A stretch of 64,000 nucleotides of DNA from Streptomyces uncialis (GTDB lineage: Bacteria; Actinomycetota; Actinomycetes; Streptomycetales; Streptomycetaceae): positions 7,310,001 through 7,374,000 of the forward strand of contig NZ_CP109583.1 in assembly GCF_036250755.1 (NCBI RefSeq), written 5' to 3'. The position numbers and the translations under genes are program-made. Shown piece by piece: positions 53,370-64,000 of this stretch (its first letter is position 1; each line of letters starts with the position of its first letter). The notes under the pieces are model-generated. The model saw only the letters and a list, made by a program, of their open reading frames with translations. It searched no databases and had not been told where the DNA came from.

Positions 53370-54662
53370 ATGTTCGGCATTGTCAGGCCCTGCAAGCATC
53401 GCTTGGGGGAGCGGCTCGGAGCCGCGTGGATGGCTCATTTGTGCGGCCTGTGCCTCGCTCTGCGAAGGGATCACGGGCAGTTCGCCCGGCTTGTCACCAA
53501 CTATGACGGTCTGCTGGTCTCGGTTCTGACGGAAGCTCAGGCCGAGCGGGCCGAGGAGGGCCGGCGCCGGGCCGGACCCTGTCCGCTGCGCGGGATGCGT
53601 GGTGCCTCAGTGGCCCGTGGGGAGGGTGCCAGGCTCGCCGCGGCGGTCTCCCTGGTGCTCGCCGCGGCCAAGATGCGGGACCACGTCCTGGACGGTGACG
53701 GACTGTTGGCTCGAAAGCCCATAGCGGTCGCCGCACGGCGTGTCGCGGCCAACTGGGACAAAGCGGGTCAACGTACCGGTACGGCTGTGGGCTTCGACAC
53801 CGCGCTCCTGCTCGACGCGGTCGACCGCCAGCCGGGCATCGAGGCACTCGCGGGCCCCGGCACCCCGCTGCTCACCGTCACCGAACCCACCGAGACCGCG
53901 ACGGCCGCCGCCTTCGCGCACACCGCCGTCCTCGCCGGCAGACCCCACAACGCCGCGCCGCTCGCCGAGGCCGGACGCCTCTTCGGCCGGCTCGCCCATC
54001 TCCTGGACGCCGTCGAGGACCGGGACACCGACGCCGCCACGGGCGCGTGGAACCCGCTCACCGCCACCGGCACCGACCTCACCGAGGCCCGCCGCCTCGC
54101 CGACGACGCGCTGCACGGGATACGTCTGGCCCTGCGCGAGGCCGACTTCACCGACGGCGGACTCGCCCATGTGCTGCTCGCCCATGAACTGCGGAACTCG
54201 GTGGACCGCGCCTTCGGGTCGCGCTCCTGCGGGCACCCGGGCGCGGGGGACGAGGCCGCGCCGGGCACGCACGGGACCCTGTCCGGACCCGGCGCCGCCC
54301 ACACGGTCGGCGCCCACACACCCGGCGGGCCGAACGGGCCTTACGCGCCGAACGGACCGTACGCCCCGAACGGGCCTTACGCGCCCGGCGGACCCGGTGA
54401 CCCCGGTCCGGGTGGTCCCTTCCCGCCCGGACCGCCGCGCCGGGACCGGCGGGGGATGCTCGCGGGCTGTCTGGTCTGGGCCGGACTCGCCTGCACGTGT
54501 CAGCTCTGCTGCGGCGAGTACGAGGACCCCTGGTCGCGTGAGCGCCGTCCGTCACCGTGCGGGAACTGCGACTGCGGGGTGTGCGGCGAATGCTGCAACT
54601 GCTGTAGCTGCTGCGGCGGGGACGGCGAGGGCGGCTGCTGCGACTGCGGGTGCGACTGCTGA
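53370..54662 (+). CDS. DUF5685-type protein with Cys-rich C-terminal tail
   Basis: 430 residues from ATG 53370, GGGGAG upstream. N-terminus MFGIVRPCKHRLGERLGAAW and MAHLCGLCLALRRDHGQFAR is the conserved block, with Cys8, Cys25 and Cys28 as a possible metal site. The helical middle contains VLAAAKMRDHVLDGDGL, RLFGRLAHLLDAVEDRDTDA and WNPLTATGTDLTEARRLADD, reminiscent of a helical all-alpha domain with acidic clusters. A linker with three NGPYAP copies leads to the last 68 residues, which hold 20 cysteines in CC, CxC and CxxC patterns. Function unknown; the tail suggests metal or cluster binding or disulfide packing. Confidence 0.82.
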   Translation: MFGIVRPCKHRLGERLGAAWMAHLCGLCLALRRDHGQFARLVTNYDGLLVSVLTEAQAERAEEGRRRAGPCPLRGMRGASVARGEGARLAAAVSLVLAAAKMRDHVLDGDGLLARKPIAVAARRVAANWDKAGQRTGTAVGFDTALLLDAVDRQPGIEALAGPGTPLLTVTEPTETATAAAFAHTAVLAGRPHNAAPLAEAGRLFGRLAHLLDAVEDRDTDAATGAWNPLTATGTDLTEARRLADDALHGIRLALREADFTDGGLAHVLLAHELRNSVDRAFGSRSCGHPGAGDEAAPGTHGTLSGPGAAHTVGAHTPGGPNGPYAPNGPYAPNGPYAPGGPGDPGPGGPFPPGPPRRDRRGMLAGCLVWAGLACTCQLCCGEYEDPWSRERRPSPCGNCDCGVCGECCNCCSCCGGDGEGGCCDCGCDC

Positions 54663-54987: not shown

Positions 54988-55947
54988 TCAGCCCTTGGAC
55001 TCCGGCGGGGAGATCTCCGAGGTCTTGATGGCGGAGCCCTTCGTGCCCCACTTCGCCAGGATCTTGTCGTACGTCCCGTCCTCGATGAGCTTGTTGACCG
55101 CGGCCTGGAAGGCGGGGGCCAGCGGGGTGTTCTTCTTGAAGGCGAAGCCCACGTCCAGCCGGTGGAACTCGCTCAGGAACTTCAGCCCCTTCTGATGGGA
55201 CACCGCGTACCGCAGACCGTTGATGGTGCTCATCACCACATCGGCGCGGCCCTGCTGGAGCGCGGACCAGATCGCGCTCTGATCGCTGTACGTCTGGACG
55301 CTGTACGCCTTCTGCCCGTCGCACACCTTCTTGTTGTCCTGGAGCGTCGCCTCGAACGTCGTGCCCGCGCTCGTCGCGACCTTCAGCCCGCAGAGCTGCT
55401 TGAGATCGTTGATCTCGGGCAGATCGCTGTCCTCGCGCGCGGCGAAGCCCTGGCCGTCGTTGATGTACGTCACGAAGTCGATCGTCCTGCGGCGCTCCTC
55501 CGTCACCCCGAAGTTGCCGGTGCCCAGGTCGTACTTGCCGCTGCCGAGCGCGGGCAGGATCGCCTCGAAGCTCGCCACCTCGCGCTTCAGCTCGATGCCC
55601 AGCACCTTCGCCACCGCGTCCGCGAAGTCCACGTCCTGACCGACGAGCGTCTTCCCGTCGTCCAGGTACGCCGAGCCCGGCGGGTTGCCGCCGACGCTGG
55701 TCGCGAGGGTCAGTTCACCGTTCCCGCGGACCTCCGCCGGCAGCAGCGCCGCGGCGGCCGGGTCCTTGGCGAGCGAGGACACCACATCGGTCGTCGGGAG
55801 GTCCGCGTTCTTCGCGGCGCCCGTCCGGGTACCCGGGTCCGAACCGCCCGACCCGTCCGAACCGCACGAGGTGAGCGTCAGCGCGGTGGCCGTGATCAGG
55901 GCGAAGGTGGCGAAACTGCGATGGCGGGACAGCGTGGACGTACTCAT
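54988..55947 (-). CDS. Polar amino acid ABC transporter solute-binding lipoprotein (SBP_bac_3)
   Basis: 319 residues from ATG 55947. Lipoprotein signal with lipobox around Cys28 (ALTLTSCGSD). The SBP_bac_3 fold shows GQDVDFADAVAKVLGIELKR, YDLGTGNFGVTEERRRTIDF and LKVATSAGTTFEATLQDNKK. C-terminal DGTYDKILAKWGTKGSAIKT is characteristic. It binds an amino-acid-like ligand outside the cell for the permeases transcribed divergently from 56666. Confidence 0.9.
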   Translation of the reverse strand: MSTSTLSRHRSFATFALITATALTLTSCGSDGSGGSDPGTRTGAAKNADLPTTDVVSSLAKDPAAAALLPAEVRGNGELTLATSVGGNPPGSAYLDDGKTLVGQDVDFADAVAKVLGIELKREVASFEAILPALGSGKYDLGTGNFGVTEERRRTIDFVTYINDGQGFAAREDSDLPEINDLKQLCGLKVATSAGTTFEATLQDNKKVCDGQKAYSVQTYSDQSAIWSALQQGRADVVMSTINGLRYAVSHQKGLKFLSEFHRLDVGFAFKKNTPLAPAFQAAVNKLIEDGTYDKILAKWGTKGSAIKTSEISPPESKG

Positions 55948-56535
55948 GGTGTGGCGTTCTCCAAGTACCGACAGATGAGACGGACGACCGGAAGGTGAGA
56001 GGCCCGGCGGGAAGGCGGTGCGCGCGGCCCGGCCCAGGCGCGGCCGGCCGGCCCGTCCGGGGTCGCCGGTCGGGCCGCGCGGGGCGCGGCGGAGCTGTCG
56101 GGAAGCGGTCGGGAAGCGGCCGGCCGCGGGTCCCGCCGGAGCGGGTCACCCGCCGGCGGTCACCGAGGGCACTGCGGGAAGGGCACTGCTGAGGGGAGGG
56201 GCCGAGCTGGCGAACGTGTGTGAAGGCACTGCGGGCACTGCGAAAAGGGAAAGGGCGCCGGAACGGCGGGAACAGCGGGAACGGCGGGGCGGACCGTGCG
56301 CGGGACGCGGAAGGTGGCCCGGTGCCTCGGAGAACGCGTGACGGCCGTCGCGCGGAGAGAGAACCGCGGGGCCGGGCAGCGTGGCGTCAGCTCAACAAGA
56401 CGCCGACCACACTCGACCGAAGTCGATGTGGGAGCGTGTGACCAGCCACTGCTGCGGATGCATGGTCACAAGTGGAACAGGCATCCGGGTCGCCGTCAAC
56501 CGACTTGAGACGTACGGCTCAGAGTGTGGACACCC
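55948..56535. other. Divergent regulatory region of the transport cluster
   Basis: About 590 GC-rich bases with short repeats: GGCACTGCGGG-like units at about 56167-56240 and GGAACGGCGGGAACAGCGGG at 56262-56288. No gene supported; three plus-strand frames here are compositional. No T-box or other riboswitch recognised. Confidence 0.45.
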
Positions 56536-56566
56536 TTGACAGCGTGGCGGACAACACCCTTAGTCT
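56536..56566 (+). promoter_or_regulatory. Candidate promoter of the amino-acid transporter operon
   Basis: A perfect -35 TTGACA (56536-56541) is followed by CTTAGT at 17 bases or TAGTCT (56561-56566) at 19 bases. The transcript would begin near 56573, giving a leader of about 90 bases to the ATG at 56666. Confidence 0.5.
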
Positions 56567-56665
56567 CAAGGCGTATTGGGACGCCCGCCGCTGCTGAGGG
56601 GCTCGGTCGGTGTCCATGTGTGAAGGCCAGTCCGTGCCGACTTCCCGTGCCCGCGGAGCCTTCGC

Positions 56666-57532
56666 ATGTCCTTGCCCACGCTCACCAAGAGCTCCCCCGC
56701 CCGACCACGTGATCCGTCCGGCGGCCCGCCTCTCACCCTGTCGATCGTGCGCCGGCCCAAGGCCGGTCAGTGGATCGCCGCCGTCGTCCTGCTCGTCCTG
56801 CTCGCGGCCGCCGTCCGGTCCGTGGTCCGCAACGACGCCTTCCAATGGGGCGTCGTCGGTGAGTACTTCACCTCCGCGTCCGTACTGCGCGGCCTCGGTC
56901 TCACCCTGTGGCTGACCGCCCTGGTGATGGTCCTCGGCTTCGCCCTCGGCACCCTGCTCGCCGTGATGCGCCTGTCCGACAACCCGGTACTGCGCGCCGT
57001 GAGCTGGGGATACGTCTGGCTGTTCCGGTCCATGCCGATCCTCGTCCAGCTGCTCTTCTGGTTCAACATCGGCGCCCTGTACCCGCAGATCCTCGGGGTC
57101 AGCACCGTCAATCTGCTCGACCCCATCACCGTCGCCATCATCGGGCTGACCCTGCACGAGGCCGCGTACGCCGCCGAGGTCGTCCGCGGCGGCATCCTCT
57201 CCGTGGACCGCGGACAGATCGAGGCCGCGCAGGCGCTGGGGCTCGGCCGGGGGCGGCGCTGGCGGCGGATCGTGCTGCCGCAGGCCATGCGGGCGATCGT
57301 GCCACCGGCCGGGAACATGCTGATCGGCACCCTCAAGGGCACGTCCATCGTCTCCGTGATCGCGGTCGCCGATCTCCTCTACTCGGTGCAGCTCGTCTAC
57401 CACCGCACCTACCAGGTGATCCCCCTGCTGCTCGTCGCCACCGTCTGGTACGTGGTCGTCACCTCCGTGCTCAGCGTCGGCCAGTACTACGTCGAACGGC
57501 ACTACGCCCGGGGAACGGAGACCCGCCGATGA
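56666..57532 (+). CDS. Amino acid ABC transporter permease (His/Glu/Gln family)
   Basis: 288 residues from ATG 56666. Five to six membrane segments. LRGLGLTLWLTALVMVLGFA opens the BPD_transp_1 domain; YVWLFRSMPILVQLLFWFNI is the HAAT-family signature, and LHEAAYAAEVVRGGILSVDR-GQIEAAQALG the EAA loop that docks on the ATPase. N-terminal 30 residues cytoplasmic. ATGA overlap with the flavoprotein gene. Confidence 0.92.
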   Translation: MSLPTLTKSSPARPRDPSGGPPLTLSIVRRPKAGQWIAAVVLLVLLAAAVRSVVRNDAFQWGVVGEYFTSASVLRGLGLTLWLTALVMVLGFALGTLLAVMRLSDNPVLRAVSWGYVWLFRSMPILVQLLFWFNIGALYPQILGVSTVNLLDPITVAIIGLTLHEAAYAAEVVRGGILSVDRGQIEAAQALGLGRGRRWRRIVLPQAMRAIVPPAGNMLIGTLKGTSIVSVIAVADLLYSVQLVYHRTYQVIPLLLVATVWYVVVTSVLSVGQYYVERHYARGTETRR

Positions 57533-59313
57533 GACCCACCCTGGTCATCGTGGGCGCCGGCCCCCGGACCACCGGCCTGCTGGAACGCATCGCCGCCAAC
57601 GCGCCCGGACTGCTGTCCGGCGACGGCGCCGACGCGCTGGACATCCATCTCGTGGACCCCTATCCGCCGGGCAGCGGCCGGATATGGCGCCAGGACCAGT
57701 CCCCGCTGCTGTGGATGAACTCCATGGCCGAGGACGTCACCATGTTCACCGACGAGACCGTCCCCCTGGACGGGCCCGTCCGCCCCGGACCCACCCTCCA
57801 CCAATGGGCGGGACTCGACGGCGCCGCCTTCCCCGGCCGCCGGCTCGGCGGTTCCTATCTGCGCTGGGTGTACGAGCGGGCCGTGGCCGCGCTGCCCCCC
57901 GGGATCACCGTCCACCACCACGCGCGCCGCGCGACCCGCCTCCAGGGGGACCGCGACGGCAGCCAGCGGGTCTGGATCGAAGGACGCGCCGAACCGCTCA
58001 CCGCCGACCTGGTGATCCTCGCCCTCGGCCATGTCGAAGCCGAACTCGACGCCGAACAGCGCGGGTTGCGCGCCTACGCGGACCGCCATGGCCTGCTCCA
58101 TCTGCCGCCCGACTACACCGCCGACATCGATCTGTCCGCACTCGCGCCCGGCGAACCGGTACTGGTGCGGGGCTTCGGTCTCGCCTTCGTCGACCTGATG
58201 GTCCTGCTCACCGAGGGCCGCGGCGGACGGTACGAGGAGGGCCCCGGCGGGGAGCTGACGTACCTGCCCACCGGACGGGAACCCGTACTGCACGTCGGTT
58301 CCCGGCGCGGGGTGCCGTACCACTCGAAGATCGGGTACTCCTGGTCGGGGGAGCGCCCGCCGCTGCCCCGGTTCTTCGGCCCCGCCGAGGTGGACGGGCT
58401 GCTGGCCCGGCCCGGTGGCGCCGACTTCGTCCGCGACGTGTGGCCGCTGATCGACAAGGAACTGGGCTTCGCCCACTACCACCGGCTGTTCGCCACGCAC
58501 CCCGAACGGACCCGGGTCTCCTGGACCGACTTCGAGGAGAAGTACGCCGCCGCCGGGCCGCTGAGCAAAGAACTGCGCGCCCTGGTGGCGTCCTCGGTGC
58601 CCGACCCCGCCGACCGGCTCGACCTCGCCGCCCTCGACCGGCCCCTCGACGGGGTGCGCTACCCCGACGGCGACGCGCTCCAGGACGGGGTACGCGCCTA
58701 CATCACCGCCGACCTCGCCCGCCGGCACGACCCCGCGCACAGCCCCGACCTGGCGGTCTTCCTCGGACTGCTGTCGGTGTACGGGCAGCTCATCCGGCTC
58801 GGCGACACCGGTCCCTGGTGGCACGGCTTCTTCAGCTACCTCGCCTCCGGACCGCCCGGACCCCGGCTGCGGCAACTGCTCGCGCTCTCCCGGGCCGGGA
58901 TCGTCCGGTTCCTCGGACCCGGTATGACCGTCACCGCCGAGGACGGGGTCTTCCGCGGCTCAGGCCCCTCGGTGCCCGGACGGTCCGTCACCGCCCGCGC
59001 GCTCATCGAGGCGCGGCTGCCGCACCCCACCCTCCAGGACACCAGCGACTCCCTGCTGCGCGGGCTGTACACGGAAGGCGTACGGGTCACCTCCGCCGGA
59101 CTGCTCGCCGTGGACCCGGCGGACGGCCGGGTCCTGGACCGGGACGGCGTACCGCATCCACGGAGGTTCGCCCTCGGCCCGCACACCGACGCCCGGGGCT
59201 CCGGGGCGTTCACCCGCCCCTGCACGGGCGGCCCCTCCTTCCGTCAGAACGACACCACCGCGCGCACCGTGCTCGCCTTCCTGCGTGACGTGTCCTGTCG
59301 CGCCGCCGCCTGA
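57529..59313 (+). CDS. Large FAD/NAD(P)-binding protein (NAD_binding_9-like)
   Basis: 594 residues from ATG 57529, coupled by ATGA to the permease. The N-terminal dinucleotide loop is LVIVGAGPRTTGLLERIAAN, followed by HLVDPYPPGSGRIWRQDQ and WMNSMAEDVTMFTD, typical of the uncharacterised FAD-NAD(P)-binding family. ADLVILALGHVEAELD at about 160 is the ATG/GD-like motif. GEPVLVRGFGLAFVDLMVLL starts a second Rossmann-like segment, and ALGPHTDARGSGAFTRPCTG the C-terminal flavin region. Being inside an import operon with two monooxygenases, it probably oxidises, or supplies electrons for oxidation of, the imported compound. Confidence 0.85.
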   Translation: MRPTLVIVGAGPRTTGLLERIAANAPGLLSGDGADALDIHLVDPYPPGSGRIWRQDQSPLLWMNSMAEDVTMFTDETVPLDGPVRPGPTLHQWAGLDGAAFPGRRLGGSYLRWVYERAVAALPPGITVHHHARRATRLQGDRDGSQRVWIEGRAEPLTADLVILALGHVEAELDAEQRGLRAYADRHGLLHLPPDYTADIDLSALAPGEPVLVRGFGLAFVDLMVLLTEGRGGRYEEGPGGELTYLPTGREPVLHVGSRRGVPYHSKIGYSWSGERPPLPRFFGPAEVDGLLARPGGADFVRDVWPLIDKELGFAHYHRLFATHPERTRVSWTDFEEKYAAAGPLSKELRALVASSVPDPADRLDLAALDRPLDGVRYPDGDALQDGVRAYITADLARRHDPAHSPDLAVFLGLLSVYGQLIRLGDTGPWWHGFFSYLASGPPGPRLRQLLALSRAGIVRFLGPGMTVTAEDGVFRGSGPSVPGRSVTARALIEARLPHPTLQDTSDSLLRGLYTEGVRVTSAGLLAVDPADGRVLDRDGVPHPRRFALGPHTDARGSGAFTRPCTGGPSFRQNDTTARTVLAFLRDVSCRAAA

Positions 59314-59387
59314 CGGCACCGGCCCGTCCGGCCCTACGCGAACCCTCCCGCGCGCGTGCGCGAACCCACAGGCCCCGAGGAAACCTC

Positions 59388-60281
59388 ATGTCCCTGACCA
59401 GCGATCCACCTCTCGACACCACGACACCACGACCCGTCCCGGCCGACGACGGCTTCGCCTCGCTCAAGGTCGTTCCCGTCCGGCATCCCTGGCGCTGGGC
59501 CGCGGTCGTCGCCACCGCCGTGCTCCTGGCCCAGTTCGTCCACGGGCTGGTCACCAACGCGGGCTGGGAATGGGAGGTGTTCGCGGAGTTCTTCACCGCG
59601 GACGTGGTCCTCAGGGCGGTGTGGGTCACCCTTCAGCTCACCTTCTACGGCACCGCCCTCGGCTTCGCGCTGGGGATCGTGCTGGCCTTCATGCGGCTGT
59701 CGGCCAGCCCGTTCCTGAAGGCCGTCGCCTTCGGCTACATCTGGGCGTTCCGCTCGATCCCGCTGATCGTCCAGCTGCTCTTCTGGTTCAACCTGGCCTA
59801 TCTGTACAAGGAGTTGCAGTTCGGTATCCCGTTCGGGCCCGGCTTCTTCACCTTCGACACGATGGGCCTGGTCGGCGCGATGAGCGCGGCGGTCCTCGGA
59901 CTCGCGCTGCACCAGGCCGCGTACGCCGCCGAGATCGTCCGCGGCGGGGTGCTCGCCGTGGACACCGGGCAGCTGGAGGCGGCCGCCGCGCTCGGTATCC
60001 CACGGCTGCGGCAGATCCGCCGGATCGTGCTGCCGCAGGCGATGCGGTCGATCCTGCCCAACGCCGCCAACGAGGTGATCTCCCTCTTCAAGGGCACCTC
60101 GATCGTCTCCGTCATGGCGATCGGCGAGCTGTTCTACCAGGTCCAGGTCATCTACGGCCGCAACGGGCGCGTGGTCCCGCTGCTGATGGTCGCCACGGTC
60201 TGGTACATCCTCCTGACCACCGCGCTGTCCGTCCTCCAGTACTACGTCGAACGACACTTCTCGAAGGGGGCCACGCGATGA
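59388..60281 (+). CDS. Amino acid ABC transporter permease, second subunit
   Basis: 297 residues from ATG 59388. YIWAFRSIPLIVQLLFWFNL and LHQAAYAAEIVRGGVLAVDT-GQLEAAAALG mirror the first permease; the two are clear paralogues (a shared C-terminal QYYVERH). They probably form a heterodimeric channel. ATGA overlap with the ATPase gene. The 74-base gap after the flavoprotein holds no terminator. Confidence 0.92.
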   Translation: MSLTSDPPLDTTTPRPVPADDGFASLKVVPVRHPWRWAAVVATAVLLAQFVHGLVTNAGWEWEVFAEFFTADVVLRAVWVTLQLTFYGTALGFALGIVLAFMRLSASPFLKAVAFGYIWAFRSIPLIVQLLFWFNLAYLYKELQFGIPFGPGFFTFDTMGLVGAMSAAVLGLALHQAAYAAEIVRGGVLAVDTGQLEAAAALGIPRLRQIRRIVLPQAMRSILPNAANEVISLFKGTSIVSVMAIGELFYQVQVIYGRNGRVVPLLMVATVWYILLTTALSVLQYYVERHFSKGATR

Positions 60282-61261
60282 GCGCGCCCGTACCCGCTTC
60301 CGCGGTCACGAAGACCGCAGGCACGGTCGGTCCGGCCGGCACGGTCACGAGCACCACAGGGGAACCCGCCGGGGGTACCGCCGGGGAGGCCGGCGGCAAG
60401 GTGGCCAGCGACAACGCGGCTGTCGGCAAGGCGGCTGCCGGTGAGGCGGTCGTGGCGGACGGCCCCGGCGACCAGGTGGCCGTCGAGGAGGAGTCCGGGG
60501 CGCCGGTCATGGTCGAGATCCGCGGTGTCCACAAGAGCTTCGGGACGCTGGAGGTGCTCAGGGGCATCGATCTGGACGTCCCCGTGGGCGAGGTCACCGT
60601 GATCCTCGGCCCCTCCGGCTCCGGCAAGTCGACCCTGCTGCGGACCATCAACCATCTGGAGAAGGCCGACAGCGGCTGGATCAGCGTCGACGGCTCCCTC
60701 ATCGGCTACCGCCGCTCCGGCGACAAGCTGTACGAGCTCCGCGAGCGCGAGGTACTGAGGCAGCGCACCCGGATCGGGTTCGTCTTCCAGAACTTCAACC
60801 TCTTCCCGCATCTCACCGTGCTGGAGAACATCGTGGAGGCTCCCGTCTCCGCGCTGAAACGGCCCCGCAAGGACGCCGTCGCGGCGGCCCGGCGGCTGCT
60901 GTCCCGGGTGGGGCTCGACGACAAGGCCGACGCCTACCCCAAGCAGCTCTCCGGCGGTCAGCAGCAGCGGGTCGCGATCGCCCGCGCGCTCGCCCTCGAA
61001 CCGAGGCTGCTGCTCTTCGACGAGCCGACCTCCGCGCTCGACCCCGAACTCGTGGGCGAGGTGCTCGACGTCATCAAGGACCTCGCCCACCAGGGCACCA
61101 CGATGATCGTCGTCACCCATGAGATCGGCTTCGCCCGCGAGGTCGCCGACACCGTCGTGTTCATGGACGAGGGCCGGGTGGTCGAACAGGGGCCGCCCGC
61201 GGCCGTCCTCGACGCGCCCCGGCACGAGCGCACCAAGGCGTTCCTGTCCAAGGTCCTGTGA
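60278..61261 (+). CDS. Amino acid ABC transporter ATP-binding protein
   Basis: 327 residues from ATG 60278. Residues 1-75 are an unusual Ala/Gly/Thr/Val-rich extension not found in most HAAT ATPases. The domain then begins VEIRGVHKSFGTLEVLRGID, Walker A ILGPSGSGKSTLLRTINHLE (about 108-127), Q-loop FVFQNFNLFPHLTVLENI, signature QLSGGQQQRVAIARALA, Walker B RLLLFDEPTSALDPELVGEV and the H-switch VTHEIGF. Energises the two permeases. An internal ATG near 60509 (MVEIRGVH) is a possible alternative start. Confidence 0.93.
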   Translation: MSAPVPASAVTKTAGTVGPAGTVTSTTGEPAGGTAGEAGGKVASDNAAVGKAAAGEAVVADGPGDQVAVEEESGAPVMVEIRGVHKSFGTLEVLRGIDLDVPVGEVTVILGPSGSGKSTLLRTINHLEKADSGWISVDGSLIGYRRSGDKLYELREREVLRQRTRIGFVFQNFNLFPHLTVLENIVEAPVSALKRPRKDAVAAARRLLSRVGLDDKADAYPKQLSGGQQQRVAIARALALEPRLLLFDEPTSALDPELVGEVLDVIKDLAHQGTTMIVVTHEIGFAREVADTVVFMDEGRVVEQGPPAAVLDAPRHERTKAFLSKVL

Positions 61262-61315
61262 CCTGCCCGTAGCTGTCCGGTCCGTATCCGTACCGTCCGC
61301 TGATCGTTTTCGCAG

Positions 61316-61353
61316 CTCCCTTCTCCCTTCTCCCTTCTCCCTTCTCGCTTCTC
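61316..61353 (+). repeat. 7-bp pyrimidine tandem repeat (CCCTTCT)
   Basis: Four perfect CCCTTCT units (61318-61345) and a variant CGCTTCT lie between the ATPase and second binding-protein genes. A 38-base transcript stretch without purines may stay single-stranded, and its complement looks like repeated RBS sequence. Confidence 0.85.
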
Positions 61354-61475
61354 AGGTCCTTTCGCTGTTCCCGCCGCTGTTCCGTTCGCGCGGCGGCTGC
61401 CCGGTCCGTCCGGGTCCGCCGCGCGTGGAACCGCCTCATCCCACCCTCATCGGTCACCAGTTCAGGAGTACGACT

Positions 61476-62486
61476 GTGTCTTCCCGTTCCCCTCGTGGTC
61501 CCCGGTCCGTCCGGCGGCCCCGCCGCGCTCTCGTCCTGTCCGCCGCCGCGCTGGTGGCCGCACCGCTGCTGGCCGCCTGCGGAGGTGACAGCGACGCCGC
61601 GTCGTCCGCGACGGGGCAGGCCAAGGGCGACAAGGCCGGCGGGATCAACATCGGCCCCGACCAGAACCGGGTCAGAGGCACCAAGGACGAGAAGATCGCG
61701 GCCCTGCTGCCCGACGGCATCCGCGAGAGCGGTCTCCTGCGGACCGGGCTGGGCGCCGACTCCTCCCCGCCGCTCGGCTTCTTCGCGACCGACGACAAGA
61801 CCCGGATCGGCTCCGAGATCGACATAGCGACCCTGGTCGCCGACACCCTCGGACTCAAGGTCAAGCCCCAGACGGTGTCCTGGGAGAACCTCTTCGTCGG
61901 CCTCGACAGCGGCAAGTTCGACGCCGTCTTCTCCAATGTCACGGTCACCGAGGAGCGCAAGGAGAAGTACGACTTCGCGACCTACCGGCTCGACAACATC
62001 GCGTTCGAGGCGAAGAAGGACGCCGACTGGAAGATCACCGGCCCGAAGGACGTCGCGGGCCGGACCATCTCGGTGTCCTCCGGCACCAACCAGGAACGCA
62101 TCCTGATCGACTGGAGCGAGCAGAACGAGAAGGCGGGCCGCAAGCCCGTCGACATCAAGTACTTCCAGAAGGACACCGACTACTACCTCGCCCTCCAGTC
62201 GGGACGGATCGACGGCCACCTCGGCCCCTACCCCACGGTCGCCTACCACGTCGCGACCTCCGGACAGACCAAGGTCGTCGGTTCGCTGTCCGGCGCGGGT
62301 GACGCCCTCCAGGGCAAGATCGCCGCCACCACGAAGAAGGGCAGCGGGCTGGTCGACGCCTATGCCGCCGCCCTCGACCACGTCATCGCCGACGGCTCGT
62401 ACGCCAAGGTCCTCAAGCGCTGGGGACTGTCCGGTGAGGCCGTGAAGAAGTCCGAGGTCAACCCGGAGGGGCTGCCCCGGACCTGA
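61476..62486 (+). CDS. Second solute-binding lipoprotein of the transporter (SBP_bac_3)
   Basis: 336 residues from GTG 61476 with AGGAG at about 61463-61467. Lipobox LLAACGG, lipidated Cys35. GSEIDIATLVADTLGLKVKP, KFDAVFSNVTVTEERKEKYD and GRTISVSSGTNQERILIDW identify SBP_bac_3. It differs clearly from the divergent one at 54988, so the transporter may take two ligands. C-terminal DGSYAKVLKRWGLSGEAVKK. Confidence 0.9.
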   Translation: MSSRSPRGPRSVRRPRRALVLSAAALVAAPLLAACGGDSDAASSATGQAKGDKAGGINIGPDQNRVRGTKDEKIAALLPDGIRESGLLRTGLGADSSPPLGFFATDDKTRIGSEIDIATLVADTLGLKVKPQTVSWENLFVGLDSGKFDAVFSNVTVTEERKEKYDFATYRLDNIAFEAKKDADWKITGPKDVAGRTISVSSGTNQERILIDWSEQNEKAGRKPVDIKYFQKDTDYYLALQSGRIDGHLGPYPTVAYHVATSGQTKVVGSLSGAGDALQGKIAATTKKGSGLVDAYAAALDHVIADGSYAKVLKRWGLSGEAVKKSEVNPEGLPRT

Positions 62487-62605
62487 CCCGGTGCCATGCG
62501 GGGCCCGTCGGCCTACCCCCGACCGGTCCGGCGGCCCGTCCGCCGGCCCGGTCCGCCGCCGGGCCCCGCGTGGGACCCCCACCCCCACCCGAGAGGTACA
62601 CCGAC

Positions 62606-63685
62606 ATGACCGCTTCCACCGGCCGGGGGCTGCTGCACCTGGCCGCCGCCCTCGATCTGCCAGGCGCCTACGACCCCCAGCCCTACACCGAACTGGTCCG
62701 GCTCGCCGAACGGGGCGCCCTGGACTTCGTGACCCTCGGCGACTCCTTCGGCCGCCCCGGCCCCGACGCGCTCGCCGTGCTCGCCCGGCTCGCCCCGGTC
62801 ACCGGGCGCGTCGGACTGGTGCCGACCGTGACGACCACCCACACCGAGCCCTTCCACCTCCAGGCCGCCGTGGCCACCCTCGACTGGGTGAGCCGGGGCC
62901 GGGCCGGCTGGCAGGCCGAGGTCTCGCAGGGGGAGCACGAGGCCCGGCTGTTCGGCCGCCGCGACGCCGCGCCCCCCGAGGCACTGTGGCGGGAGGCGGC
63001 GGACGTGGCCGAGGCGGCCACCCGGCTGTGGGACAGCTGGGAGGACGACGCCGAGATCCGCGACACATCGACAGGGCGCTTCATCGACCGCGACAAGCTG
63101 CACTATGTCGACTTCCAGGGCGCCACCTTCTCCGTGAAGGGCCCCTCGATCGTGCCCCGGTCCCCCCAGGGCCACCCCGTCATCGTCGTCGACGCCACCG
63201 ACCCGCACGCCCGTGACACCGCCGCCCGGTACGCCGATGTGGCGCTGGTCCGCGCGGCGGGCCCCGCGCAGAGCGCTGCCCTGCGCACCGGACTGCGTAC
63301 GGCCGCCGCCGCCCACGGCCGTGACCCCGACACCCTGCGGGTCCTCGCCGCCCTCGCCGTCGACCTCGGCGAGGGCGAGTACGCGGCCGAACCGGGCCAC
63401 GGCGGCGGAGGCCCCCGGCCCAGCCCGTACGGTCCGCTCTACCGGGGCGGGCCCGTCGACCTCGCCGAGCTGATCGCCGCCTGGCACTCCTCGGGCGCCG
63501 CCGACGGCTTCCACCTCACCCCCGTCGAACCGCGCCGTGACCTGGAGCGGCTCGTCAACGGAACCGTCCCGCTGCTCCAGCACCGCGGACTGTTCCGCAC
63601 CTTCTATCCGGGCAGCACGCTCAGGGAGCACCTGGGACTCGCACGGCCCGCCAACCGCTACGCCCTCGTGGGGGACCCCTCATGA
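62606..63685 (+). CDS. LLM-class flavin-dependent monooxygenase (YtmO-like)
   Basis: 359 residues from ATG 62606 with GAGAGG at 62591-62596. TIM-barrel luciferase-like: ALDFVTLGDSFGRPGPDALA, VGLVPTVTTTHTEPFHLQAA, LDWVSRGRAGWQAEVSQGEH. HPVIVVDATDPHARDTAARY and FYPGSTLREHLGLARPANRY close the fold. Such enzymes use FMNH2 and oxygen to cleave C-S or C-N bonds. ATGA overlap with the next monooxygenase gene, so the pair is made together. Confidence 0.88.
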   Translation: MTASTGRGLLHLAAALDLPGAYDPQPYTELVRLAERGALDFVTLGDSFGRPGPDALAVLARLAPVTGRVGLVPTVTTTHTEPFHLQAAVATLDWVSRGRAGWQAEVSQGEHEARLFGRRDAAPPEALWREAADVAEAATRLWDSWEDDAEIRDTSTGRFIDRDKLHYVDFQGATFSVKGPSIVPRSPQGHPVIVVDATDPHARDTAARYADVALVRAAGPAQSAALRTGLRTAAAAHGRDPDTLRVLAALAVDLGEGEYAAEPGHGGGGPRPSPYGPLYRGGPVDLAELIAAWHSSGAADGFHLTPVEPRRDLERLVNGTVPLLQHRGLFRTFYPGSTLREHLGLARPANRYALVGDPS

Positions 63686-64000
63686 CCAGCACCCACCGCG
63701 GCCCCGGCCGCGCCCGCAGGCGGATGCATCTCGCCGCCCACTTCCCCGGCGTCAACAACACCACCGTGTGGTCCGATCCGCGCTCGGGTTCGCAGATCGA
63801 CTTCGCGTCCTTCGAGCATCTGGCCCGCACCGCCGAGGCGGGACTGTTCGACTTCTTCTTCCTCGCCGAAGGGCTCAGGCTCCGCGAGCACAACGGACGC
63901 GTCCACGACCTGGACGTGGTGGGCCGCCCCGAGTCGATCACCGTGCTCAACGCGCTCGCCGCCGTCACCGACCGGCTGGGGCTCGCGGCCACCGTCAACG
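63682..64000 (+). CDS. NtaA/SnaA/DszA-family FMN-dependent monooxygenase, 5' part (runs off the window)
   Basis: 106 codons visible from ATG 63682. MHLAAHFPGVNNTTVWSDPR, SGSQIDFASFEHLARTAEAG and LFDFFFLAEGLRLREHNG are the family's N-terminal signature; SITVLNALAAVTDRLGLAAT starts the second strand-helix unit. Members include dibenzothiophene-sulfone, nitrilotriacetate and YtnJ-type monooxygenases. Expect about 430-450 residues in full. Confidence 0.87.
   Translation, partial: MTSTHRGPGRARRRMHLAAHFPGVNNTTVWSDPRSGSQIDFASFEHLARTAEAGLFDFFFLAEGLRLREHNGRVHDLDVVGRPESITVLNALAAVTDRLGLAATVN

Follow-up and report, generated by a model that had tools for sequence, protein, structure and literature searches.

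A Streptomyces uncialis cluster of importer, FAD monooxygenase-type and luciferase-like monooxygenase genes with a possible role in the salvage of S-substituted cysteines

The 64,000-nucleotide (nt) stretch of Streptomyces uncialis analyzed here (contig NZ_CP109583.1, positions 7,310,001 to 7,374,000; the window) ends in a cluster of amino acid import and flavin-dependent oxygenase genes. A divergent gene for a solute-binding lipoprotein (SBP1), with a short leader open reading frame (ORF) upstream, precedes the genes for permease 1, a FAD/NAD(P)-binding protein (the FAD protein), permease 2, an ATPase, a second solute-binding lipoprotein (SBP2), two luciferase-like monooxygenases (LLM1 and LLM2) and a DUF1684 protein, in that order, with serine-protease genes beyond (Table 1). 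Pfam and NCBIfam matches and gene calls recovered every component listed in the first-pass annotation, namely, two SBP_bac_3 lipoproteins, two HAAT permeases (50% identical to each other), one ATPase, the FAD protein and two LLMs. The ATGA joins that it described are present as 4-nt overlaps at permease 1/FAD, permease 2/ATPase and LLM1/LLM2, but gaps of 74 and 214 nt separate FAD from permease 2 and ATPase from SBP2, and SBP1 lies on the minus strand. It had also proposed a look past position 64000 for an acetyltransferase, an amidohydrolase or a sulfur regulator. The YtnJ-like LLM continues there and is followed by DUF1684, but no acetyltransferase, M20 amidohydrolase or regulator occurs among the called genes, one of which (282 amino acids [aa]) has no family.

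Table 1. Features of the cluster, in window positions
Feature	Position	Strand	Evidence or remark
SBP1, divergent solute-binding lipoprotein, SBP_bac_3 amino acid type	54988..55947	-	Pfam PF00497, 6e-26
Leader ORF, MHPQQWLVTRSHIDFGRVWSASC then stop, upstream of SBP1	56392..56463	-	holds inverted repeat CCACATCGAC-TTCG-GTCGnGTGTGG
Permease 1, HAAT type, HEQRo_perm_3TM	56666..57532	+	TIGR01726, over cut-off
FAD/NAD(P)-binding protein of 594 aa (predicted flavin monooxygenase, class B)	57529..59313	+	PF13454, 9e-38
Permease 2	59388..60281	+	TIGR01726, over cut-off
ATPase, TcyN-like	60278..61261 (or start 60509)	+	NF008428, 326 bits, below cut-off 406
SBP2, second SBP_bac_3 lipoprotein, GTG start behind AGGAG	61476..62486	+	PF00497, 7e-26 (query carried 27 extra upstream residues)
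LLM1, luciferase-like monooxygenase, NtaA/DmoA/DszA type	62570..63685	+	TIGR03860, 239 bits, below cut-off 279.7; best PDB match DszA, 1e-50
LLM2, YtnJ-like monooxygenase	63682..65073 (past window end 64000)	+	TIGR03860, 401 bits, over cut-off; best PDB match YtnJ, 2.9e-77
DUF1684 gene	65342-66178 (window equivalent)		after LLM2

The FAD protein had been described as uncharacterised, but it has a characterised relative with full-length homology: a phmmer search of the PDB matched residues 4-583 to the L-aspartate N-hydroxylase 8CP2 (E 9.2e-98). Its AlphaFold2 (AF2) model (pLDDT 76.6, dropping below 50 within stretches of residues 45-68 and 523-564) superimposes on 8cp2 with a TM-score of 0.82, and the next folds are the ornithine N-hydroxylases KtzI, SidA and PvdA. 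The chamber residues of 8CP2, as named in passages of PMC10404684, were compared in 46 cluster FAD proteins from the survey described below (5 of 51 were removed by a length filter). Arg577 is kept in all 46, Asn62 in 45 (1 gap) and Trp51 and Arg13 in 44 each (2 gaps each). Arg266 is Lys and Arg412 is Tyr in 46/46, Asn413 is Gly or Ala in 46/46, Arg276 is Pro in 45 and Thr in the remaining one, Arg409 falls in a gap in 46/46 (Leu in another alignment) and Arg416 is never Arg. The window's own protein keeps Arg13 and Arg577 and has Pro, Gly and Ile in place of Arg276, Asn413 and Arg416. The flavin site is retained, and most of the aspartate-binding arginines are gone.

Paralogues of the cluster proteins present a different picture, as all 13 retain Arg266, Arg409, Arg412, Arg416 and Arg577 (L020_par, being the same protein as L049, was left out; L and G numbers are our own for loci and genomes). 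A nitrosuccinate-lyase-like gene, sought with a query that scores 692 bits against the NCBIfam model for this lyase (cut-off, 650), adjoins arginine-type proteins in 4 of 6 loci and proteins of other residue types in 0 of 18. A CreD-type lyase partner was likewise sought by tblastn with the L266 lyase, which gave no match in L005, L006 or L125. In a tree of a thinned set, a single clade (support, 100/100) unites the cluster proteins with the L049-L052 type, and 8CP2 lies outside it. By homology, the FAD protein is predicted to be a class B monooxygenase; from its chamber residues, it is predicted not to be an aspartate hydroxylase. Oxygenation of S-(2-succino)cysteine (2SC), in effect aspartate with sulfur for nitrogen, was considered and rejected, as all 46 cluster proteins lack five of the chamber arginines of 8CP2. 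The earlier proposal of 2SC as a substrate therefore finds no support, most of the arginines that hold the dicarboxylate in 8CP2 having been lost.

The two LLMs are distinct. LLM1 resembles the NtaA/DmoA model and has no match at E<=0.001 to the MsnO8 model (TIGR03558), and it is therefore not YtmO-like, as had been claimed for one of the LLMs. LLM2 is closest to YtnJ/MoxC among structures in the PDB and, by homology, represents the CmoJ/YtnJ-type C-S monooxygenase of the Bacillus subtilis ytm/cmo operon. The AF2 model of DUF1684 (L131 homologue; pLDDT, 87.7) matched only uncharacterised haloarchaeal proteins at E<=0.001.

The arrangement recurs in relatives. The FAD protein and LLM2 are 97% and 99% identical, respectively, to proteins listed for S. 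uncialis. FAD homologues were found in 30 of 41 genomes searched (including its own), and in 12 other genomes of the genus a homologue of 65-76% identity lies in the same neighbourhood, which argues that the arrangement is not due to chance. Shared genes keep their order in these 12, but some have been lost: the importer in L037 and L039, LLM1 and LLM2 in L042, and permease 2 and SBP2 in several. A survey of named genomes, in which an alignment of seven LLM2 proteins was the query and the best 80 loci were taken, found LLM1 with LLM2 in 79 loci and FAD-LLM1-LLM2 in 51. Among these 51, DUF1684 is present in 42, the ATPase in 40, permease 1 in 38, SBP1 in 36, permease 2 in 22, SBP2 in 21 and a GNAT-family acetyltransferase, beside SBP1, in 10. 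The FAD gene overlaps permease 1 by 4 nt in 33 of the 38 loci with both genes (own gene calls; one locus not callable) and sits between the permeases in all 22 loci that hold permease 1, FAD and permease 2. It is not, however, a mere addition between two permeases, as first supposed: 11 of the 51 loci hold FAD-LLM1-LLM2 without permease 1 and SBP1 although the contig continues (4 more are ended by contig ends). Because importer genes are missing from part of the 51 loci, the usual core is FAD-LLM1-LLM2, and the second permease and SBP, or in some loci the whole importer, are optional.

Beyond these close relatives, contexts were read for 20 of 35 matches to FAD-type proteins of other families (44-50% identity to the L049 protein). 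In five loci from four families (L258-L261 and L264) the gene adjoins LLM1/LLM2, ABC, GNAT or SsuD-like genes; L256, L257 and L262 have none of these. Distant versions of the cluster carry SsuD-like, GNAT and (in L050) SsuA-type genes. A plasmid search with the FAD protein returned 56 records, all of <60% identity (37% for the best listed).

Some further features of the loci were observed. Streptomyces sp. MZ04 (L131) has the entire cluster minus the FAD gene, with permease 1 and permease 2 overlapping directly by 4 nt. The genome of S. uncialis has a second LLM1-LLM2 pair (L077:8620-11171; G000:C1:1366664-1369137) with no ABC, FAD or MsnO8 gene within the 20 kb read. The ATPase as called has 77 Ala/Gly-rich residues ahead of the ABC domain (window 60278-60508); relatives are ~250-310 aa long, and 60509 may be the real start. 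A DUF5685 protein with a very Cys-rich C terminus (window 53370-54662) adjoins the cluster in 33 of the 51 FAD loci. Genes for Rrf2-family regulators lie near related clusters (L118:17039-17494, L122:9624-10082 and L124:12936-13394, the first two by Pfam), and none was called near the window's cluster. Rrf2 is the family of CymR; the B. subtilis regulator at the ytm/cmo operon is the LysR-type YtlI.

We take CmoJ and CmoO to be YtnJ and YtmO, respectively. In B. subtilis, according to passages of PMC10863075, N-acetyl-S-alkylcysteine is converted by CmoO to a sulfoxide, which CmoJ then cleaves. In a Paenibacillus operon the ATPase gene is followed, in the position of ytmO, by a gene of the MsnO8 family (349 bits), and an Agrobacterium cluster also holds an MsnO8-family gene (335 bits); the equation of YtmO with MsnO8 is drawn from gene position in Paenibacillus, not from the B. 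subtilis sequence. The S. uncialis cluster contains no MsnO8-type S-oxygenase. Two MsnO8 genes over cut-off lie elsewhere in the genome, which has no match to the L205-type MsnO8 at E<=1e-90. Across the 79 loci with LLM1 and LLM2, 51 have FAD, 19 have MsnO8, none has both and 9 have neither (4 of these are cut near LLM1), giving a Fisher p of 8e-12 if kinship is ignored. A same-genus search, for which one MsnO8 protein was the query, matched 68 of 246 genomes, and the 40 contexts taken from these contain LLM2 in 37 cases, LLM1 in 34 and FAD in none. Four genomes (G001, G011, G014 and G017) have FAD and MsnO8 at separate places.

Phylogeny provides a limited number of changes between the two oxygenase types. 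In a quick LLM2 tree (FAD loci thinned to 20 of the 51 named loci, 19 of which entered; L210 is a long branch), the FAD-bearing L051 and L052 nest within the MsnO8 clade (SH-aLRT, 99). The FAD/MsnO8 labels require 2 changes on the LLM2 tree and 4 once distant loci are added, long branches among them (every fourth FAD locus used and L210 omitted; L237, L258, L260, L261 and L264 are long branches whose places are unsure). A similar set of transporter, GNAT, SsuD-like gene and leader occurs with MsnO8 and no FAD in G007 and with FAD and no MsnO8 in G002 and G021.

The leader ORF provides a separate link to sulfur metabolism. Cysteine leader peptides have been published for Mycobacterium, P. acnes and B. 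longum (passages of PMC1262725); the eight-entry leader-peptide list for S. lividans in passages of PMC8079986 has none for cysteine. As in these actinobacterial leaders, the element is a short ORF with Cys near its end and belongs to a type found ahead of sulfur genes. The pattern H[IV]D[LF]xRVx[ST]A has 4 matches in the 9.26-Mb genome and none in the reversed reading used as a control. One match precedes a NirA/sulfite-reductase-family gene followed by CysH, CysC, CysD, CysN, SsuA and a permease; the five named last before the permease are each over at least one NCBIfam cut-off, and the NirA/sulfite-reductase-family gene reaches none. Another lies upstream of the SsuE FMN reductase (equivalog, 225 bits; cut-off, 164), and a third lies 1.5 kb ahead of an SsuD-like LLM (458 bits, below the cut-off of 518), with no intervening gene called. 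In 25 genomes there are 66 matches versus 1 in the control. Of 33 contexts examined, 14 have a sulfur assimilation gene after the leader by BLAST or Pfam (SsuE-like, 4; SsuA/NMT1-like, 4; sulfite-reductase-like, 2; SsuD-like, 2; CysH-like, 1; LLM1, 1); for L093, L094, L102, L111 and L115, five of the 14, identity is 24-33%. SBP1 or permease 1 types follow in 4 of the 33, two of which are the present cluster. Sulfatase, SBP56, GST-like, ABC permease and SCO4226-like genes were the others tested behind leaders. The leader type ties the locus to a sulfate assimilation operon and is independent support for a function in sulfur metabolism.

A relaxed form of the leader is present in 48 of the 51 FAD loci; L142, L147 and probably L159 are cut upstream. 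Its coding DNA is a near-perfect inverted repeat with a TTCG loop, and across 36 SBP1 loci the wobble bases of H-I-D-F-G and V-W do not vary; they hardly vary in 12 others but are free at the bulge. Two sites resembling terminators overlap the leader, against 0.5 expected; Rfam had nothing at E<=1 in 20 kb, and a scan for consensus promoters found none. The leader DNA may also function in the direction of FAD, either as an operator or as an RNA hairpin.

Several observations concern the leader itself. A leader of the sulfur type also lies ahead of a GST-like gene in several Streptomyces (L097, L098, L100, L105, L106 and L109; Pfam on L097 only). It is intact in 11 loci read without SBP1 (L136, L137, L139, L140, L149, L162, L165, L166, L171, L177 and L181). 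In 9 of these no minus-strand gene is called between leader and upstream neighbour, and in L162 and L171 the next minus-strand gene is a neighbour of 143-150 aa (SepF-type in the window), some 0.5-0.6 kb on. In 10 of 12 SBP1-less loci (including L184, on a cut contig), FAD starts 251-335 nt from the leader on the opposite strand. The plus-strand ORF MWERVTSHCCGC... was considered as a polycysteine leader and rejected, being antisense to the minus-strand leader; it is the peptide of the latter that distant loci share.

We give an even chance to the proposal that the locus salvages imported S-substituted cysteines, or thioether amino acids related to them, and that the FAD protein replaces the MsnO8/CmoO S-oxygenase. 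SBP1 and SBP2, with the two permeases and the ATPase, would import the amino acid, as their families suggest. The FAD protein, predicted by homology to be a single-component, NADPH-using class B monooxygenase, would oxygenate the thioether sulfur to a sulfoxide, as the MsnO8-family LLM (CmoO type) would elsewhere. LLM2, a relative of YtnJ/CmoJ, and LLM1 would then cleave the C-S bond of the sulfoxide with reduced FMN, by homology to the published chemistry of B. subtilis CmoJ, and the SsuE FMN reductase encoded elsewhere behind a like leader may supply FMNH2. The freed cysteine equivalents would enter sulfur metabolism, and the placement of the leader suggests that it ties expression to cysteine status. 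The first-pass proposal of ytm-like organosulfur scavenging is supported by the match of LLM2 to YtnJ, the leader link to a sulfate assimilation operon and the GNAT, SsuD-like and SsuA-type genes of relatives. More tentatively, at somewhat less than an even chance, a FAD monooxygenase of the N-hydroxylase type would have been recruited repeatedly, displacing the luciferase-family S-oxygenase non-orthologously; an amino acid N-oxygenase scaffold would have become an S-oxygenase through loss of the arginines that bind the dicarboxylate. The gene clusters concerned would be those with a cysteine-type leader, the coding DNA of which also forms a conserved hairpin common to two divergent transcripts.

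A number of results weigh against these proposals. Among 7 independent FAD/MsnO8 pairs, 2-3 are opposite, 4-5 show no difference and, in nearly all pairings, none goes the same way; the median sign test p is 0.25, reflecting few independent events. One locus (L263, in G511) holds a FAD-type protein, MsnO8, LLM1 and LLM2 together, and LLM1-LLM2 pairs occur with neither oxygenase in L131, L175, L176, L185, L189 and L077. FAD-type genes also occur with no LLM1 or LLM2 nearby (L042, L049, L050, L256, L257, L262, L268 and L269) or with LLM1 only (L038, L040, L270 and L271). No N-acetyltransferase was detected in 20 kb at the locus by tblastn with two cluster GNATs, and the closest match in the genome to a GNAT query is 41% over 113 aa. 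An M20 N-acetylcysteine deacetylase is likewise missing, with no TIGR01891 match at the locus; the genome has four genes that exceed the cut-off, of which the one nearest to the locus is ~150 kb distant. Finally, no precedent for S-oxygenation was found in the family of the FAD protein, whose characterised member and nearest other folds N-hydroxylate.

That last point favors a different chemistry, in which the FAD protein would N-hydroxylate an imported sulfur-bearing amino acid and the LLMs would cleave the N-hydroxy or oxime product, a new N-oxidative route of sulfur salvage. The missing GNAT, which may leave the amine free, agrees with this; the rebuilt substrate pocket and the alternation by locus with MsnO8, whose presumed counterpart CmoO is a sulfoxidase, do not, and we regard the route as unlikely. 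The substrate might instead be a sulfonate, a sulfone or a taurine-like amino acid, prepared by the FAD protein and desulfonated by LLM1 and LLM2. DszA, the best PDB match of LLM1, is a sulfone monooxygenase, and distant versions of the cluster carry an SsuD-like LLM and SsuA-type genes, but the transporter is of the polar amino acid type and YtnJ is the solved structure nearest to LLM2, so that such a substrate seems distinctly improbable. It is somewhat unlikely, finally, that the FAD protein and MsnO8 are not equivalents at all and that their exclusion reflects inheritance in lineages or subclusters with different substrates. The sign test and L263 are compatible with inheritance, as is the distribution of hosts: the named FAD loci are from Streptomyces and Kitasatospora, save L163 (Microtetraspora), and 18 of 19 MsnO8 loci are from other genera. 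Within one genus, however, the MsnO8 clade includes the FAD-bearing L051 and L052, and a similar set of transporter, GNAT, SsuD-like gene and leader accompanies MsnO8, with no FAD, in G007.

Soil actinobacteria depend on organic sulfur, and many of their enzymes for it have no assignment. The comparison suggests a function that can be tested for a protein with 120 listed homologues, which are named, if at all, only FAD/NAD(P)-binding, YdhS-like or hypothetical. Chamber residues and neighbouring genes separate it from nitrosuccinate-forming enzymes, a possible confusion in genome mining, and the leader motif is a marker of sulfur genes in Streptomyces and relatives.

With Streptomyces FzmM (8CP2; CreE type), the FAD protein shares whole-length homology, fold, Arg13, Trp51, Asn62 and Arg577, but Arg266, Arg276, Arg409, Arg412, Asn413 and Arg416 are replaced, there is no nitrosuccinate-lyase neighbour and the context is one of sulfur genes. 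The scm (yxe) 2SC pathway of B. subtilis, as described in passages of PMC12757645, similarly frees cysteine from a modified cysteine by LLM-type C-S cleavage; the present locus differs in lacking acetyltransferase and deacetylase and in a FAD protein without dicarboxylate recognition. According to the same passages, S-methyl- and S-benzylcysteine can be substrates of the ytn and yha clusters. In contrast to the B. subtilis ytmI-tcyJKLMN-ytmO-ytnIJ-ytnLM (cmo) operon, as listed in passages of PMC2885750, the locus has no MsnO8-family gene, acetyltransferase or deacetylase and carries in their place a FAD protein of the aspartate N-hydroxylase type, an additional LLM of NtaA type and DUF1684; it has an actinobacterial leader ORF, and B. 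subtilis has YtlI. Both have two SBPs, two HAAT permeases, a TcyN-like ATPase, a YtnJ-like LLM and probable sulfur regulation, and some relatives of the present cluster also share the acetyltransferase. The leader consensus R-x-H-[IV]-D-[LF]-x-R-V-x-[ST]-A and the Streptomyces host differ from the cys-operon leaders in passages of PMC1262725, which name Mycobacterium, P. acnes and B. longum; shared with the Mycobacterium and Propionibacterium leaders are the short ORF, the lack of a clear terminator, the Cys codons near the stop and the position ahead of sulfur genes.

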